Below are positions 1,965 to 9,824 of a stretch of 64,000 nt of DNA, piece after piece. Position 1 is the first letter of the stretch. Each line of letters starts with the position of its first letter. Both the position numbers and the translations under genes were made by a program. The notes below the pieces were generated by a model. The model ran no database searches and was not told the origin of the DNA. It was given only the letters and a program-made list of their open reading frames with translations. Source of the stretch: an uncultured Bacteroidia bacterium (GTDB lineage: Bacteria; Bacteroidota; Bacteroidia; Bacteroidales; UBA932); assembly GCA_902801205.1 (NCBI GenBank), contig CADCHE010000006.1:244545-308544 (forward strand), read 5' to 3'.

Positions 1965-3557
1965 ATGAAAAACATTCTTCGCATAGCAGCCGCATCAATA
2001 GTCGCCCTGGCGATGGTTGCAGCACCTGCAGACACTTACGCACAGTCCAGAAGTTCTTCGGGCTCCCGGAGCACCTCCACGACACGCAATAGCGGATCTT
2101 CCGCTTCATCTTCCCGCAGTTCGTCTTCCTCCAGCAATCGGGGGTCTTCCTCCGTCAGCCGGAGCACGTCTTCCTCCAGCAATCGGGGTTCTTCCTCCGT
2201 CGGCCGGAGCACGTCTTCCTCCAGCAGCCGGGGTTCTTCTTCCGTCGGCCGGAGCACTTCGGGCAGTTCTTCCCGCTCTTCGGCACCGGCGACCTCGGCT
2301 TCCAGCCAGGACAACCGCCGGACCTCGACGGGCACCGCCTCGCGCGGCACGTCCTCTTCTTCCCGCAGTTCTTCCTCCGCCCGGAGTTCGTCTTCCGCCA
2401 GCACCCGGAACAGCGGCGCGACCGCCACTTCCCCTGCTGTGACGACTTCCGGCCAGGACAACCGCCGGACCTCGACGGGCACCGCCTCGCGTGGCACGTC
2501 CTCCTCTTCCCGCAGTTCTTCCAGCCGGGTCGCCCGGCCGGTAGAGTCCACCGAGCGTGCGAATGTCGCCGCTTCTTCCCGTGAGCGTTCCGCTTCTTCG
2601 AGAAGTTCCGCTTCCCGCAGCGCCGGCAATTCCGCCCGTGAGCAGGCTGCAGCCCGCTCCGCCGTCGGTAACGCCACCCGCGAGGGACTCAGTACGGTCA
2701 ACGGCCAGGTCCGTGGCGGCGCCCGCGCCGCGAACGGCGTGGCTCCCGAGACCCGCAACGACTTCCTGCGGATCGGCGACGACCGCAACGTCCACCGGAT
2801 CCCTCCGCGCGAGCGTGACTTCCTGACCTATGACCGTCCCGGTCACTTCTGGGGCCACAATCCGCACTATTTCGGATACCGGGTCCACTATCTCCCTCCG
2901 CGCTACCGTCGCTACACTTACTGGGGAATCGACTATTGCTTCTATGACGGAATCTGGTATCGCCCTTACGGCGGCTGGTACGTCATCTGCCGTCCTCCTT
3001 TCGGTGTCACCGTCGACATCGCGGTCTCCAACCTGGTCTTCTCCAGCGTCCGCTTTGCCTACTATTGCAACGCGTACCGGCAGTACCGTGCCATTGACGA
3101 GAACAACCGTATCATCGACGAGCAGAACCGCATCATCGCCCAGAACAACGCCACCATCGCGGCGCAGAACCGTTCCGTGGCCCTGAATACGATGCTCGCA
3201 AACGATGCGGCCTCCCTGGCGGACCGCCTCGGCCTCGTGCAGAGCTACGCGTACGCCGACCAGCCGTACTACTATCAGGACGGTGTCTTCTACATCGTCG
3301 GGAAGAGCGGGAAATACGAGGTGATCGTGCCTCCGGCCGGCGCCCTGGTCTCCGAACTTCCGGACGACTACGACATCATCACCCTCGACGGCATGGAGTT
3401 CTACAAAGTGGACGACACCGTCTACAAGATGAGCCTCGTGGAGGGCAAACCCTATCTCGAGGTCCTGGGCCAGATGTACGGCACCCTTGCCAGAAAATAC
3501 AATTACAACTACAACAACGTGACTGCCAATCCTTCGATTGCGCTCGAGCAGCTGTAA
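1965..3557 (+). CDS. Secreted serine-rich protein with DUF6515-like C-terminal region
   Basis: 530 residues. A Sec signal peptide (about 1-27, TYA-Q) is followed by some 200 residues made almost only of Ser, Arg, Gly and Thr, including three 15-residue tandem units and a 23-residue unit present twice. From about residue 265 there is a folded-looking part rich in Tyr, Trp and Arg (YWGIDYCFYDGIWYRPYGGWY), then a hydrophobic stretch, an Asn/Gln/Ile heptad-like segment (about 375-400) and a compact C-terminal domain with YYYQDGVFYIV and GKYEVIVPPAGALVSELP. The C-terminal part resembles the Bacteroidota DUF6515 family. It starts 20 nt after namZ and is followed by a strong terminator. A surface or periplasmic, possibly wall-associated role is inferred from composition and location only. 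Confidence 0.85.
   Translation: MKNILRIAAASIVALAMVAAPADTYAQSRSSSGSRSTSTTRNSGSSASSSRSSSSSSNRGSSSVSRSTSSSSNRGSSSVGRSTSSSSSRGSSSVGRSTSGSSSRSSAPATSASSQDNRRTSTGTASRGTSSSSRSSSSARSSSSASTRNSGATATSPAVTTSGQDNRRTSTGTASRGTSSSSRSSSSRVARPVESTERANVAASSRERSASSRSSASRSAGNSAREQAAARSAVGNATREGLSTVNGQVRGGARAANGVAPETRNDFLRIGDDRNVHRIPPRERDFLTYDRPGHFWGHNPHYFGYRVHYLPPRYRRYTYWGIDYCFYDGIWYRPYGGWYVICRPPFGVTVDIAVSNLVFSSVRFAYYCNAYRQYRAIDENNRIIDEQNRIIAQNNATIAAQNRSVALNTMLANDAASLADRLGLVQSYAYADQPYYYQDGVFYIVGKSGKYEVIVPPAGALVSELPDDYDIITLDGMEFYKVDDTVYKMSLVEGKPYLEVLGQMYGTLARKYNYNYNNVTANPSIALEQL
2124..2258 (+). repeat. Three tandem 45-bp units inside the serine-rich gene
   Basis: Units begin at 2124, 2169 and 2214, each starting TCTTCCTCCAGCA and ending with CGGAGCAC. 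They differ at a few positions and encode 15-residue repeats of the type SSSS-x-RGSSSV-x-RST. The unit length is a multiple of three, so copy-number change would keep the frame. Confidence 0.9.
2307..2522 (+). repeat. Pair of 69-bp direct repeats inside the serine-rich gene
   Basis: 2307-2375 and 2454-2522 are near identical (two mismatches seen), offset by 147 bp, which is 49 codons. Each starts CAGGACAACCGCCGGACC and encodes QDNRRTSTGTASRGT followed by a serine run. The near identity at DNA level, including synonymous positions, suggests a recent duplication or gene conversion. Confidence 0.88.
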
Positions 3558-3619: not shown

Positions 3620-3651
3620 TTGGCAAATAAAGAAACAGTTTGTTAAATTTG
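3620..3651 (+). promoter_or_regulatory. Promoter of the amgK-murU-mscL unit
   Basis: A Bacteroidota-type -7 box TAAATTTG at 3644-3651 has a TTG at 3620-3622, 21 nt upstream. The box lies only 20 nt before the ATG at 3672 and overlaps the earlier in-frame GTG at 3651, which argues for 3672 as the true start. Confidence 0.65.
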
Positions 3652-3671
3652 TGGGAAGGATCGATCTTTAC

Positions 3672-5087
3672 ATGGAAAAACTCCGTCACCTTTTCGAACA
3701 ATATACGGGGCGCCCGGCGACCGATGTCGACGAGCTGACCTCCTCCGGCAGCAACCGCCGGTACTACCGCCTGCGCGGGGGCGACCTGAGCATCGTCGGC
3801 GTCGTCGGTACGAACCTGGAAGAAAACAATGCGTTCATCTACCTGAGCCGCCATTTTCTGGAAAAAGGCATCCGCGTGCCCAAGGTGCTGTCCGTCAGCG
3901 AAGACCGCATGCGGTACATCCAGGAAGACCTGGGCGACGAACAGCTCTACCAGGCGGTTTCCCACGGGCGCGAGAGTGGCGAGTACAGTTCCATGGAGAG
4001 CGAACTGCTTTGCCGGACGATGGCCCTCCTGCCGAAACTCCAGTTCAAGGGTGCGGAAGGGATCGACTGGTCGGTCTGCTATCCCGAACCGGCCTTCGGG
4101 GAGCGGATGGTGATGTTCGACCTCAACTACTTCAAGTACTGTTTCCTGAAGGCCACCGGCCTGGAATTCAACGAAGTCCTGCTCCAGAACGACTTCGAGC
4201 GGCTGAAGGACGACCTGCTCCTCGACATGGGCGACACCTTCATGTACCGCGACTTCCAGGCGCGCAACGTGATGCTCAAGGACGGGAATCCCTATTTCAT
4301 CGACTTCCAGGGCGGCCGGCGCGGCCCCATCTACTACGACGTCGCCTCCTTCGTGTGGCAGGCCCGCTCGCGGTATCCCGAGTCACTGCGCCGTAAGATG
4401 GTCCAGACCTATCTCACGGCCCTCAAGGCCTATACCGCCGTTGACGAGGCGGTCTTCGAAGAGCGTCTCCGCCTGTTCGTCCTCTTCCGGACGCTACAGG
4501 TGCTGGGTGCCTACGGATTCCGCGGCTATTTCGAGAAGAAGCCGCACTTCCTCGCCAGCGTGCCCTACGCCCTCGGCAACCTGCGCCGCCTGCTGCAGAA
4601 GCCGTTCTCCGACTATCCCTATCTGAATGAGATCCTGACGAAACTGACGACGATGTCCCAGTTCAACGAGATCGCGGAGGACCGCCGGCTGGAAGTCCGC
4701 ATTTTCAGTTTCGCCTACAAGAAAGGCATTCCCGTCGACAACACGGGCAACGGCGGCGGTTATGTCTTCGACTGCCGCGCCGTCAACAATCCCGGAAAGT
4801 ACGAGCATTACCGCCAGTTCACCGGCCTGGACCGGGAGGTGATCCAGTTCCTGGAGGACGACGGCGGCGTGACCCGCTTCCTGGACCATGTCTTCTTCCT
4901 GGTGGACGCCCACGTCAAGCGTTTCATCGAGCGGAAGTTCACGCACCTGCAGGTCTGCTTCGGGTGTACCGGCGGCCAGCACCGCTCGGTCTACTGCGCC
5001 GAGAAACTGGCGGCCCATCTTTCTGAAAAGTTCGACATCAAGATCACCGTCTCCCACCGGGAGCTGGACATCGAAAAGATCCTCTGA
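3672..5087 (+). CDS. amgK: AmgK-type amino-sugar kinase fused to RapZ C-terminal domain
   Basis: 471 residues. Residues about 1-330 are an aminoglycoside-phosphotransferase-fold kinase: SSGSNRRYYR as nucleotide loop, YRDFQARN with the catalytic Asp near 194, and IDFQGGRRGP with the metal-binding Asp near 211. This pattern fits AmgK, which makes MurNAc/GlcNAc-alpha-1-phosphate from the free sugar. Residues about 338-471 match the C-terminal domain of RapZ, with FSFAYKKGIP, FDCRAVNNPGKYEHYRQFTG and FGCTGGQHRSV all intact. In E. coli that domain binds glucosamine-6-phosphate and regulates GlmS; the RapZ N-terminal nucleotide-binding domain is absent here. The next gene, one base on, is MurU-like, which supports the kinase assignment. 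The fusion suggests a kinase tuned by an amino-sugar signal (inference). Confidence 0.88.
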   Translation: MEKLRHLFEQYTGRPATDVDELTSSGSNRRYYRLRGGDLSIVGVVGTNLEENNAFIYLSRHFLEKGIRVPKVLSVSEDRMRYIQEDLGDEQLYQAVSHGRESGEYSSMESELLCRTMALLPKLQFKGAEGIDWSVCYPEPAFGERMVMFDLNYFKYCFLKATGLEFNEVLLQNDFERLKDDLLLDMGDTFMYRDFQARNVMLKDGNPYFIDFQGGRRGPIYYDVASFVWQARSRYPESLRRKMVQTYLTALKAYTAVDEAVFEERLRLFVLFRTLQVLGAYGFRGYFEKKPHFLASVPYALGNLRRLLQKPFSDYPYLNEILTKLTTMSQFNEIAEDRRLEVRIFSFAYKKGIPVDNTGNGGGYVFDCRAVNNPGKYEHYRQFTGLDREVIQFLEDDGGVTRFLDHVFFLVDAHVKRFIERKFTHLQVCFGCTGGQHRSVYCAEKLAAHLSEKFDIKITVSHRELDIEKIL

Positions 5088-5851: not shown

Positions 5852-6286
5852 ATGGCTAAATCAAATTTCTGGTCCGAGTTCAAGGACTTCGCCATGAAGG
5901 GCAATGTCATCGACATGGCAGTGGGTGTCGTCATCGGCGGCGCATTCGGTAAAATCGTCACCTCCCTGGTGAACGACCTCATCATGCCGGCGGTCGGTGC
6001 GCTGATCGGCGGATTCGATTTCACGAACCTCAAGGCGGTCATCCACAAGGCGGTCATGGCGGGCGACGAGGTGGTCAAGCCTGCGGTTACGCTCAATTAT
6101 GGCAACTTCATCCAGGAGACGGTCAACTTCCTGATCATCGCCTTCTCCATCTTCCTCTGCATCAAGGCGATCAGCAAGCTGCACAAGAAGGAGGAAGCGC
6201 CGGCCGAGCCTGCGGCCCCGGCGCCGAAACCGGACGATGTGGTGCTCCTCGAGGAGATCCGCGACCTGCTCAAGAAGGAGAAGTAG
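5852..6286 (+). CDS. mscL: Large-conductance mechanosensitive channel MscL
   Basis: 144 residues, the usual MscL length. The N-terminal amphipathic helix and first membrane helix ([31 protein letters not shown], written here as the family hallmark around residues 10-40) are followed by a periplasmic loop, a second helix near 90-110 ([16 protein letters not shown]) and the cytoplasmic KKEE bundle. It opens under membrane tension to release osmolytes. It is the last gene of the amgK-murU unit (13-nt gap) and its 3' end overlaps the end of the convergent nhaC by 17 bp. Confidence 0.97.
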
Positions 6287-7769
6287 TCGCTTCTTTCCGG
6301 AAAATCTTATACCCGATGATGGCCACGAAAATGCTCATCATCGGGCTTATTATATTGAAGAAACAGAAGGGAGCATAGGCCAGGGTGGGGACGCTCAGGA
6401 TCGTTGCCTGTGTCATGCCGCAGCTGCTCCACGGGAAGATCGGGGAGGTGACGGTGGCGGAGTCCTCCACCGTGCGGCTCAACAGCCGGTTCTCGTAGCC
6501 GCGTTCCTTGAACGTGTCCTTGAACAGGTTGGATGTCAGGATGATGGACAGGTACTGGTCGGAGACGATGCCGTTCAGCAGCGTTCCCGCCGCAGCAGTG
6601 GAAGCGACCATCCCGGCGCGTTTGCGCGTGAGGGGGAGCAGGAGGGAGGCGATGCGGCGGAGCATCCCGCTGGCCTGCATGCTGGCACCGAAGCACATGG
6701 CGCAGATGATCAGGAAGACGGTGTTCAGCATGCCGAGCATGCCCCGCGTGGTGACGAGGGCATCGACTTCCGCGTTGCCGGTGTGGACGGAAACGGTGTT
6801 GTAGATGGTCTCGATCGTTCCGGCGAGCAGGATGCGCGTTTGGGAGGCGGGACCGGTGACCGCTTCGCCGATTTCGCGGATGACGCCGGGCTGGAAGACG
6901 AGGGCGGCTCCCGCCGCGAGCAGGGTGGACAGGGCCAGGACGGCCAGAGCGGGCATTTTCCGGGCGATCATCACCGCGGTGGCCAGCGGGACGAGCATCA
7001 GCCAGGGAGACAGGAGGAACCGGGACGACAGGGCGTCTTCGAAAGAGGCGATGGTGCCGGCGTCCGCGGCCGGATGCAGCCAGCCGATGACGGAGAAGGC
7101 GACCAGCGCGATCGTGATGGACGGGATGGTGGTCACCAGCATGTAGCGGATGTGGGTGAACAGGGGAACCTTGTTCAGCGAGGCGGCCAGGACGGTGGTG
7201 TCCGACAGGGGCGAGATCTTGTCGCCGAAATAAGCCCCCGAGATGATGGCGCCGGCGATGAGCCCGTCACTGAATCCTTCCGCCTTTCCGATGCCCATCA
7301 GGGCGACGCCGATCGTGGCGATGGTCGTCCAGGAACTGCCGATCATCAGCGAGACCAGGGCGCAGATGATGCAGGCGGCGGCCAGGAAGATCTTCGGATG
7401 GATGACCCGGATGCCCCAGCAGATGAGCGTGGGGACGACCCCGCTCATCGTCCAGGTGCCGGATACCGCGCCGATCAGGAAGAGGATGAGGATGGCGCTG
7501 CCGACGTCGGCGATGTGCCCGCTGATGGCTTCTTCGAACTTTTCCCAGGGGATATGGAAGAAACGCATCGACAGCCAGATGCAGACTCCGGCCGAGAAAA
7601 GCAGGACGACCTGGCTGGCGCCGAGGATGGCATCGCTGCCGAAAATGCTGATATTCAGTGCAAGCAGGGCGACCAGCACGATCAGTGGGATCAGGGAGAT
7701 GCAGGTCTGCTGCCATTTTTTCTGGAGCATGTTCCGTTCGTTTTGGGGACTGGCCGGCAAGTTAGTCAT
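6270..7769 (-). CDS. nhaC: Na+/H+ antiporter, NhaC family
   Basis: 499 residues with about a dozen hydrophobic segments. Typical NhaC features are [19 protein letters not shown] near the middle, [20 protein letters not shown] and the late [16 protein letters not shown] and [15 protein letters not shown]. It is expected to exchange sodium for protons across the inner membrane. ATG at 7769 is chosen because it gives a complete N-terminus just after an AT-rich leader; an alternative ATG at 7730 would remove 13 residues. The gene is transcribed away from the peptidase-glycosidase gene and converges with mscL. Confidence 0.93.
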
Positions 7770-7785: not shown

Positions 7786-7808
7786 TGTTTATGAGAAAGC
7801 AATCCAGA

Positions 7809-9824
7809 ATGAATATCGGGCCTGCCTGCCTGTTGGCCGCGGCCCTTCTGCTCTGTCTTCCTGCAGCCGGCGCACCGCCCCGGAAGCGGATGCGTGACTG
7901 GGGACTGACTCCCGGCGTGATGCATCCGGGCGCACACAATGCCATCACCGACGTCCCCGGCGTCAAGGTCGGTCACCTGACGAAGATCGGCGGGGAGGAT
8001 ATGCGCACGGGAGTGACGGCTGTCTTGCCGCATGGCGGCGACCTCTTCCGGAAGAAAGTGCCCGCCGCCGTCTATACGGGAAACGGATTCGGCAAGCTGG
8101 CCGGGTCGACGCAGGTCGCCGAACTCGGCTGCATCGAGGCCCCGATCCTGCTGACGAACACGCTGAACGTGCCGGAGGCCTTGAGCGGCGGTATCGAGTA
8201 CATGCTCGGGCTGCCCGGGAACGAAGACATCGGATCGGTCAACGTCGTGGTCGGCGAGACCAACGACGGTGTGCTGAACAACGTCCGTGCGCGGTATGTC
8301 ACCAAAGAGGATGTGCTGCAGGCCATCACTTCCGCCCATGACGGGCCGGTGGAGGAAGGGAACGTGGGCGCCGGCACGGGGACCGTCGCGTTCGGTTACA
8401 AAGGCGGTATCGGCACCGCATCCCGGGTCCTTCCGGCGTCGCTCGGCGGCTACACCGTCGGCGTGCTCGCCCAGACCAATTACGGGGGCAACCTCCAGAT
8501 CGACGGCATCAAGGCGGACGAACTGCTGGGCCGGACGCCGTACCGGCAGCAGATCGCCGCGCAGGATGTCGACGGGTCGTGCATGATCATCGTGGCGACG
8601 GACGCGCCTGTGGACGCCCGGAACCTGGAGCGGATGGCCAAGCGGGCCGTCATGGGCCTGGCCAAGACGGGCGGCATCGCCGCCAACGGCAGCGGCGACT
8701 ATGTCATTGCCTTCTCCAACTGCCCGGACAACCTGATCGACCCTTCGGCCGGCCTGTACAAGCCGGTCCTGCTGCCGAACGAAGCCATGTCCCCCCTCTT
8801 CATGGCCACGATCGAGGCGGTGGAGGAGGCGTTGTGGGATTCGCTCTTCGCCGCGGAGACGATGACCGGCCGGGACGGCCGTACCGTTCCTGCGCTCGAC
8901 CCGTCCGCACTCGGGCTGACCTATGCGCCCAAGGACGCCATCCGCGCCTGCGACCTGCGGGTCCGGGATCCCTTCATCATCGTGGACAATGGAGCTTACT
9001 ACTTGATATCCAGTAAGAAACAGAAGGACGGGACCCGCTGCTTGCAGGCTTTTGAAAGTGCCGACCTCGAATACTGGTTCCCGAAAGGAATCGTCTCGGA
9101 AGTCCCCGAAGGGTACCTCGGAACACACGACTGGTGGGCTCCGGACACATATTATTATAACGGGAAATACTATGTCTTCGTGACGATTTCCAACCCGGAT
9201 GCGGGCATCCTGCGGGGAACGACCATTTTCCGCTCCGACGACGGAGTGCTCGGCCCTTACCGTCCCCTTCTTACCGGCGACCGGATCAACGTGACGCCGG
9301 AAGGATACCAGTGCCTGGACGGGTCCCTGTATATCGACCCCAAGGGCCGTCCCTGGATGGTCTACTGCGTCGAGTGGAACGGACCCAATGTGCAGGACTA
9401 CGTGGGCGAAATCTGGGCCGTCCGCCTGAAGAAGGACTTCACCGGTACGGAAGGGAAACCGCACCGCCTGTTCAAAGCCTCCGAAGCCCCCTGGCTTGCA
9501 GAGGATGTCGGGAACAAGGTGACGGATGCGCCGTTCATCGTAACGGACCCTGCGACGGGCCGCCTGATCATGATGTGGTCCAGCTTCGGGCCGACGGGCC
9601 ATGCCCGCTACGGCATCCTCCAGTCCTATTCCGACAACGGCATCCTGGGGCCCTGGGTACACACCGACAAGGTGCTCTTCACCGAGGATGGCGGGCATTC
9701 GATGGCGTTTACCGATCTGGAAGGGAACCTGCGTATCTCCTTCCACTGCCCGAACAGCGGGACGGAGACGCTCACCATCAAGCGCGCCGTCATATCCGAC
9801 GGGCTGTTGAAGCTGACGGATTGA
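7809..9824 (+). CDS. Secreted fusion of S58 (DmpA/BapA) peptidase and GH43 glycosidase
   Basis: 671 residues from the ATG at 7809 (677 if 7791 is used). A signal peptide (about 1-22) is followed by a DmpA-family N-terminal nucleophile peptidase, residues about 28-365: DVPGVKVGH, ETNDGVLNN, GNVGAGTGTVAFGYKGGIGTA, and DGSCMIIVATDAP, where the Gly-Ser bond at Ser 257 is the family autocleavage site and Ser the nucleophile. With no stop or frame change it runs into a complete GH43 five-bladed propeller from about 378: LRVRDPFI with the catalytic base Asp 387, DWWAPDTYYYNGKYYVF, CLDGSLYIDPKGRPWMVY, SEAPW, VTDAPFI and DGGHSMAF. The GH43 part has no signal peptide of its own. I know of no standard family with this order. 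It could be a real fusion or a deletion/assembly join of two neighbouring genes. Confidence 0.9.
   Translation: MNIGPACLLAAALLLCLPAAGAPPRKRMRDWGLTPGVMHPGAHNAITDVPGVKVGHLTKIGGEDMRTGVTAVLPHGGDLFRKKVPAAVYTGNGFGKLAGSTQVAELGCIEAPILLTNTLNVPEALSGGIEYMLGLPGNEDIGSVNVVVGETNDGVLNNVRARYVTKEDVLQAITSAHDGPVEEGNVGAGTGTVAFGYKGGIGTASRVLPASLGGYTVGVLAQTNYGGNLQIDGIKADELLGRTPYRQQIAAQDVDGSCMIIVATDAPVDARNLERMAKRAVMGLAKTGGIAANGSGDYVIAFSNCPDNLIDPSAGLYKPVLLPNEAMSPLFMATIEAVEEALWDSLFAAETMTGRDGRTVPALDPSALGLTYAPKDAIRACDLRVRDPFIIVDNGAYYLISSKKQKDGTRCLQAFESADLEYWFPKGIVSEVPEGYLGTHDWWAPDTYYYNGKYYVFVTISNPDAGILRGTTIFRSDDGVLGPYRPLLTGDRINVTPEGYQCLDGSLYIDPKGRPWMVYCVEWNGPNVQDYVGEIWAVRLKKDFTGTEGKPHRLFKASEAPWLAEDVGNKVTDAPFIVTDPATGRLIMMWSSFGPTGHARYGILQSYSDNGILGPWVHTDKVLFTEDGGHSMAFTDLEGNLRISFHCPNSGTETLTIKRAVISDGLLKLTD

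Follow-up and report, generated by a model that had tools for sequence, protein, structure and literature searches.

A single reading frame on the plus strand of the window (the whole 64,000-nucleotide stretch of DNA that was analysed) joins a peptidase of family S58 (DmpA/BapA type) to a glycosidase domain of family GH43. Both domains lie in that one frame, their catalytic positions are kept, and no fused relative occurs among the genomes examined. The gene is probably a real, private domain fusion that combines two well-known enzyme families, and probably a recent accident rather than a known kind of dual enzyme. We regard it as reasonably probable that the fusion arose recently and in frame, by deletion, in one species, and that its product would cut itself and supply two independent enzymes.

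The fusion gene and its two halves

The features of the gene are as follows.

7791..9824, plus strand: S58–GH43 fusion gene; likely start at ATG 7791 (677 aa), alternative start at ATG 7809 (671 aa)
7791..7874, plus strand: putative export signal, judged by eye from the sequence, with n-region RKQSR, h-region ACLLAAALLLCLPA and small residues AAGA
7938..8888, plus strand: peptidase S58 (DmpA/BapA) domain, residues 44–360; Pfam PF03576, E 4.6e-109
8478..8480, plus strand: Asn224, predicted active-site residue (BapA Asn207), from alignment to 3n2w
8574..8579, plus strand: Gly256-Ser257, predicted self-cleavage site and nucleophile, from alignment to 1b65 and 3n2w
8691..8699, plus strand: Ser295 and Asp297, predicted active-site residues (BapA Ser288 and Glu290), from alignment
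8886..8927, plus strand: junction, with VPALD (residues 360–364) as the S58 end, then PSALGLTYA (residues 365–373), read as a GH43 signal-peptide remnant
8958..9785, plus strand: GH43 domain, residues 384–659; Pfam PF04616, E 2.7e-29; PDB 5c0p, E 5.2e-70
8967..8969, plus strand: Asp387, predicted general base, opening the GH43 motif in RDPF; Asp in 34/34 relatives
9318..9320, plus strand: Asp504, predicted pKa modulator; Asp in 34/34 relatives
9525..9527, plus strand: Asp573, at the place of the usual GH43 general-acid Glu; Asp in 34/34 relatives

Translation of the frame from 7809 to 9824 (plus strand) gives 671 codons with no inner stop or frameshift. The gene probably starts slightly upstream, at the in-frame ATG 7791, which adds a basic n-region, MRKQSR, before the hydrophobic stretch; the 7809 start misses this region, and 7791 is preferred because MRKQSR makes the better signal peptide by eye. 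The product would probably be exported via the S58 signal peptide. Both Pfam matches are far above their cutoffs and far beyond chance. An earlier, sequence-only reading of this DNA had described one uninterrupted frame with a signal peptide, S58 and GH43, a description that the 671 open codons, the Pfam matches and the leader (by eye) confirm.

The S58 half covers the full PF03576 profile (1–307 of 307) at 365.1 bits, against a cutoff of 23.9. Gly256-Ser257 aligns to the Gly-Ser of DmpA (1b65) and to Asn249-Ser250 of BapA (3n2w, residue positions counted by hand on the alignment), and the Asn, Ser and Asp/Glu positions of the family are all present in the alignment to the same two structures; we take Asn207, Ser288 and Glu290 of BapA to be its catalytic residues. 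Among 64 distinct, near-full-length S58 relatives (shorter rows and rows with unread bases being excluded), Asn224, Gly256, Ser257 and Ser295 are each invariant (64/64), whilst position 297 has Asp in 61 of them and Glu in the other 3. The AlphaFold2 model is of high confidence over most of this half, for which Foldseek finds the DmpA fold (2drh_B at TM(target) 0.90, 1b65_A at 0.86). Self-cleavage of a DmpA-type enzyme at Gly-Ser is described in PMC9570944. The domain had been called near-complete, with its Gly-Ser site at Ser 257, and this proved correct; the missing part is the C-terminal tail beyond the Pfam profile, which measures 7–35 residues in the relatives (median 17, 64 rows). The loss of this tail may matter for folding or assembly. 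Both DmpA and BapA are oligomeric.

The GH43 half matches PF04616 at 102.9 bits (cutoff 32.2) over positions 9–273 of 288. Its description as complete from Asp 387 agrees with the Pfam boundaries and with the RDPF motif. The roles of Asp387 and Asp504 were placed by motif, and Glu522 and His630 are also invariant in the GH43 set, which consists of the 34 relatives whose loci were aligned. A conserved Asp/Glu dyad is usual in GH43, as stated in PMC11022575. In the sequence alignment, the place of the general-acid Glu is taken by Asp573, which aligns to Glu in 4qqs and 3kst and to Asp in 5c0p. The replacement is a feature of this genus's GH43 clade, being found in all 34 aligned relatives as well as in PDB 5c0p. 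With Asp at the general-acid place, the substrate should therefore not be assumed to be arabinose or xylose; the domain is GH43-type by profile, and its sugar is uncertain. The AlphaFold2 model had no alignment rows covering GH43, and its pLDDT in this half is mostly under 60; with these low-pLDDT coordinates Foldseek gives 5c0p as a weak match, at TM(target) 0.51 with 40% identity over the aligned part. The support for the identity of this half, and for the five-bladed propeller fold of GH43 in it, comes from its sequence.

The conservation state of the halves was assessed by leave-one-out counts over columns conserved in 95% of the other rows, after removal of a second copy of the window's own DNA (L137). 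Of 125 near-invariant columns in the S58 half, the fusion departs from the conserved residue at 3 (N78D, G237D and T338V); among the 64 other rows, 53 have a lower count, 3 the same count and 8 a higher one. In the GH43 half there is one departure in 40 columns, at residue 544, with 23 of the 34 other rows below that count, 5 equal to it and 6 above it. By these counts, conservation is no better than usual in either half, and constraint on the S58 half may be relaxed. Since the catalytic positions are kept in both, two independent activities, a peptidase and a glycosidase, are likely.

The junction and its occurrence in related genomes

After VPALD-PSALGLTYA the fusion continues as PKDAIRACDLRVRDPF. 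The nearest stand-alone GH43, that of G220, reads ...FLSSLFGSYA-QDTLRTSDVRVRDPF, its leader apparently ending at SYA; in stand-alone S58 relatives the VPALD position is followed by the variable tail of 7–35 residues and then a stop. PSALGLTYA would be the remnant of an old GH43 signal peptide, which puts the putative break near 8900. No in-frame ATG, GTG or TTG lies between the halves, from 8886 to 8966, and no usual internal start precedes Asp387; the GH43 half seems to have retained the end of its old signal peptide. There is no in-frame stop codon between the S58 and GH43 domains. A missed stop or frameshift at the junction was considered and ruled out: the other two frames of 8886–8960, one of which has a stop at 8917, contain no S58-like tail. 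As the tail is absent in all three frames, no single missed base explains the join.

The junction DNA (8860–9000) is single copy in its own genome apart from short matches. The 33 other genome matches reported measure 14–28 nt, the longest (28 nt, 93%) lying on the S58 side, at 8865–8892. The repeat families reported in the window, 10 direct and 8 inverted, all lie away from the junction. The breakpoint separates two complete domains and preserves the frame. The fusion is taken as real because of this position and the single-copy junction; a misjoin at random would seldom hit such a place and keep the frame, and the assembler has little to misjoin on. The third-position GC falls from about 0.9 to 0.63–0.68 just past the junction and then rises again (averages 0.858 in the S58 half and 0.789 in the GH43 half), a drop that is as expected if the halves had different histories.

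A search of related genomes for the S58–GH43 order found it in one genome among those examined, the one that holds the window. GH43 is fused in none of the 143 other S58-bearing genomes (a hand count with overlaps removed, 16 + 124 − 6 + 9), a few S58 genes, such as those of G561 and G049, being cut by contig ends so that the C-terminus is out of view. In the genus, the S58 half is present in 17 of 400 genomes at E ≤ 1e-20, the own genome included, and in 8 of 150 more complete ones; these genus samples are nested draws, not independent. In the family, 127 of 398 genomes match at E ≤ 1e-60, and 124 have S58 once G000 (the fusion itself) and G077 and G092 (which match in this sample by GH43 only) are removed. 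In the order, 11 of 314 match, the own genome included. Stand-alone S58 proteins of the same genus reach 75% identity in G305 and 73% in G119; the longest S58 frame among the relatives, 559 aa in G305, is extended upstream, not downstream.

The GH43 half has matches in 48 of the 400 genus genomes at E ≤ 1e-30, the own genome included. Besides the latter, identity exceeds 50% only in G220, G077 and G092 (57–63%); the GH43 of G220, at 63%, is stand-alone and has its own leader. None of these three is among the S58-bearing genomes of the 400-genome sample. No GH43 of this kind was found near S58 at E ≤ 1e-5 in 48 S58 loci of named genomes, a set that overlaps the other sampled genomes to some degree and may lack the own genome's records. 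The order has no counterpart in the 143 genomes or the 48 loci that would make a conserved S58–GH43 family, and no second fused genome was found in the genus, family or order samples or in the named-genome contigs. Viral contigs gave no match, three phage records matched by one domain only, and none of 207 plasmid records has one place covering 80% of the query. Among the literature matches listed there is no S58–glycosidase fusion, which is not proof that none is in print.

Five matches extending past the S58 end were re-checked and proved to be ordinary S58 ends, each closed by a stop: those of G142 (3–386, running over one TAG), of G511 (8–400) and G654 (21–395), both running over several stops, and of L082 (25–437) and L062 (5–377). 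No GH43 lies behind S58 in these five up to E = 1, bar one chance match in G142 (35 residues, E 0.59).

In the window, the fusion gene stands between a divergent Na+/H+ antiporter gene (6273–7769), whose start is 21 bases from ATG 7791, and the gene of a SEC-C protein, followed by trmD and a DUF349 protein gene. The order SEC-C, trmD, DUF349 is kept in G033, G020 and G017, and the gene preceding SEC-C varies; in these three genomes the SEC-C and NTP-transferase blocks occupy separate contigs. The antiporter, MscL, nucleotidyltransferase and kinase genes are ordered as in the window in G033, G017 and G300, where the antiporter adjoins other genes than it does here. G142 keeps this order without an MscL match, and G020 keeps MscL, nucleotidyltransferase and kinase without an antiporter match. 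In all five genomes the block adjoins NigD-like and sigma/anti-sigma genes (one NigD scanned, the rest by eye). Gene order in the genus looks fluid, and the synteny comparison of the join is made against that fluid order.

Other features of these loci were also observed. A histidine-utilisation-like cluster comes next in G033, G017 and G300 (loci L204–L206) and in G020; its histidine ammonia-lyase type gene had no match in the own genome, in a search without a positive control. At 3651–5084 of the window an APH phosphotransferase domain and a RapZ C-terminal domain share one frame beside a nucleotidyltransferase gene, a gene pair that recurs in 13 of 14 other genomes read. The frame at 1965–3557 encodes a protein of 530 aa that has a long repeat region rich in Ser and Arg and what looks like an export leader; its gene contains 57-nt and 80-nt DNA repeats at 2114–2522.

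The S58 genes of relatives occupy several contexts. Their recurrent scanned neighbours are an HflX-type GTPase, TonB, MnmG/GidA, fumarate reductase subunits, an alpha/beta hydrolase and malate/lactate dehydrogenase. In 5 of the 48 loci (L054, L059, L064, L066 and L088) the S58 gene has, at a distance of a few kb, a gene of GH20 hexosaminidase type, scanned in L059; it encodes a sugar enzyme of another family and is no sign of a joint substrate, though not without weight. The neighbourhood gives no firm hint of a substrate shared by the peptidase and GH43.

Origin of the fusion

The lost S58 tail and the retained end of the GH43 signal peptide are best explained by a deletion between exported enzymes, for which we infer the following course. 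A rearrangement perhaps first brought the S58 and GH43 genes together; a deletion would have removed the variable tail and stop of S58, along with the start of GH43 and the greater part of its signal peptide, leaving one gene from two once-separate exported enzymes. The product, exported by the S58 signal peptide, would undergo the self-cleavage of DmpA and BapA, here between Gly256 and Ser257, to give an alpha chain of ~234 residues and a beta chain of ~415 residues, the latter beginning with the peptidase nucleophile and ending with the GH43 domain. The peptidase and the glycosidase of the cleaved chain would work independently. That the beta chain would carry GH43 had been suggested before, and is supported if Ser257 cleaves as in DmpA/BapA. 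Several points weigh against this explanation: an intermediate with both genes side by side is seen in no relative examined, the fusion is present in one genome, constraint on the S58 half may be relaxed, its lost tail may be needed for folding or assembly, and the AlphaFold2 model gives no support to the GH43 half.

The principal alternative, which is unlikely but has a real share of the probability, is that the fusion is real and non-adaptive, its product neutral or decaying and one half, most likely the peptidase, without use. The fusion is private to one species among those examined, and the rarity of S58 in the genus sample (17/400; 8/150 of the more complete genomes) means that the enzyme is dispensable there; the S58 half has lost its tail and has three changes at near-invariant columns, above 53 of 64 other rows. 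Against decay stand 671 codons free of stops and frameshifts, the retention of Asn224, Gly256, Ser257, Ser295 and Asp297, and a GH43 half that deviates at a single column of 40. It is clearly less probable that the junction is an artefact of assembly or strain mixture and that the genes are separate in the living cell. The restriction to one genome would fit this, as would the flanking genes, which are apart in relatives (blocks on different contigs in G033, G017 and G020, the antiporter elsewhere in G033, G017 and G300), but altered flanks need no artefact where gene order is fluid. Junction repeats do not exceed 28 nt, the join is in frame and between domains, and the assembly, in 22 contigs, is 98.72% complete with 0.69% contamination.

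Two readings give the joined activities a purpose. The sequence-only reading had proposed an enzyme with a dual role on glycopeptides or on glycan-amino acid conjugates; a purposeful enzyme of this kind, directed at glycopeptides or at plant glycoproteins that carry arabinose, in which the glycosidase would uncover or follow the peptidase, is the least probable of the explanations. Both halves have intact catalytic positions, GH43 occurs in multi-catalytic proteins, for instance BlArafE (PMC8939339), and GH20 lies near S58 in the five loci above. The proposal finds no support, however, in the relatives examined, none of which has the fused pair, or in the 48 S58 loci, which have no such GH43; the other recurrent neighbours scanned are of housekeeping types, and the case for a dual substrate is one of analogy. 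The two genes are always separate in the relatives examined, as the earlier reading had foreseen for the case that it was wrong, but they are never seen side by side; separate genes speak against a dual function that is old and under selection, and leave the existence of the fusion untouched. Only marginally less doubtful is a peptidase oligomer built by self-cleavage that would display several GH43 domains and act in the gut on glycopeptides or on arabinosylated glycoproteins of plants.

If self-cleavage takes place and both sites work, the gene would be a natural example of a self-processing peptidase carrying a second enzyme, and would show a domain fusion soon after the event, with unfused relatives of both halves in the genus; if they do not work, it would be a chance fusion persisting without function. 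It is a single-species case so far and defines no new enzyme system; its interest is modest, as a snapshot of fusion between two well-known families.

Comparison with known enzymes

With the S58 family (DmpA of Ochrobactrum anthropi, 1b65; BapA, 3n2w; PH0078, 2drh) the fusion shares the full profile, the Gly-Ser site and the active-site positions. The examined relatives carry S58 alone, whereas the fusion has GH43 instead of the C-terminal tail. On the GH43 side, the Bacteroides thetaiotaomicron protein of PDB 5c0p ("endo-arabinase" by title) matches over the whole domain and likewise has Asp in the general-acid position; it consists of a single domain, whereas the fusion carries S58 in front. 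The literature searched yielded no paper naming 5c0p.

Within the genus, the closest GH43 proteins are the stand-alone one of G220 and the GH43–GH43 tandems of G077 and G092, at 57–63% identity and with leaders like export signals. Unlike the fusion, they have no S58 part, and those of G077 and G092 have a second GH43-like part behind the first. These tandem proteins (L097 and L098) are ~650 aa long, with the two GH43-like parts discerned by eye and the first close to the GH43 of the fusion.

BlArafE, according to PMC8939339, has the architecture GH43_22-GH43_34 and acts on arabinogalactan protein. Like the fusion, it ties GH43 to another catalytic domain in one exported chain. Its partner domain is an arabinofuranosidase, for which PMC8939339 reports a cooperative substrate, whereas the partner in the fusion is a peptidase.
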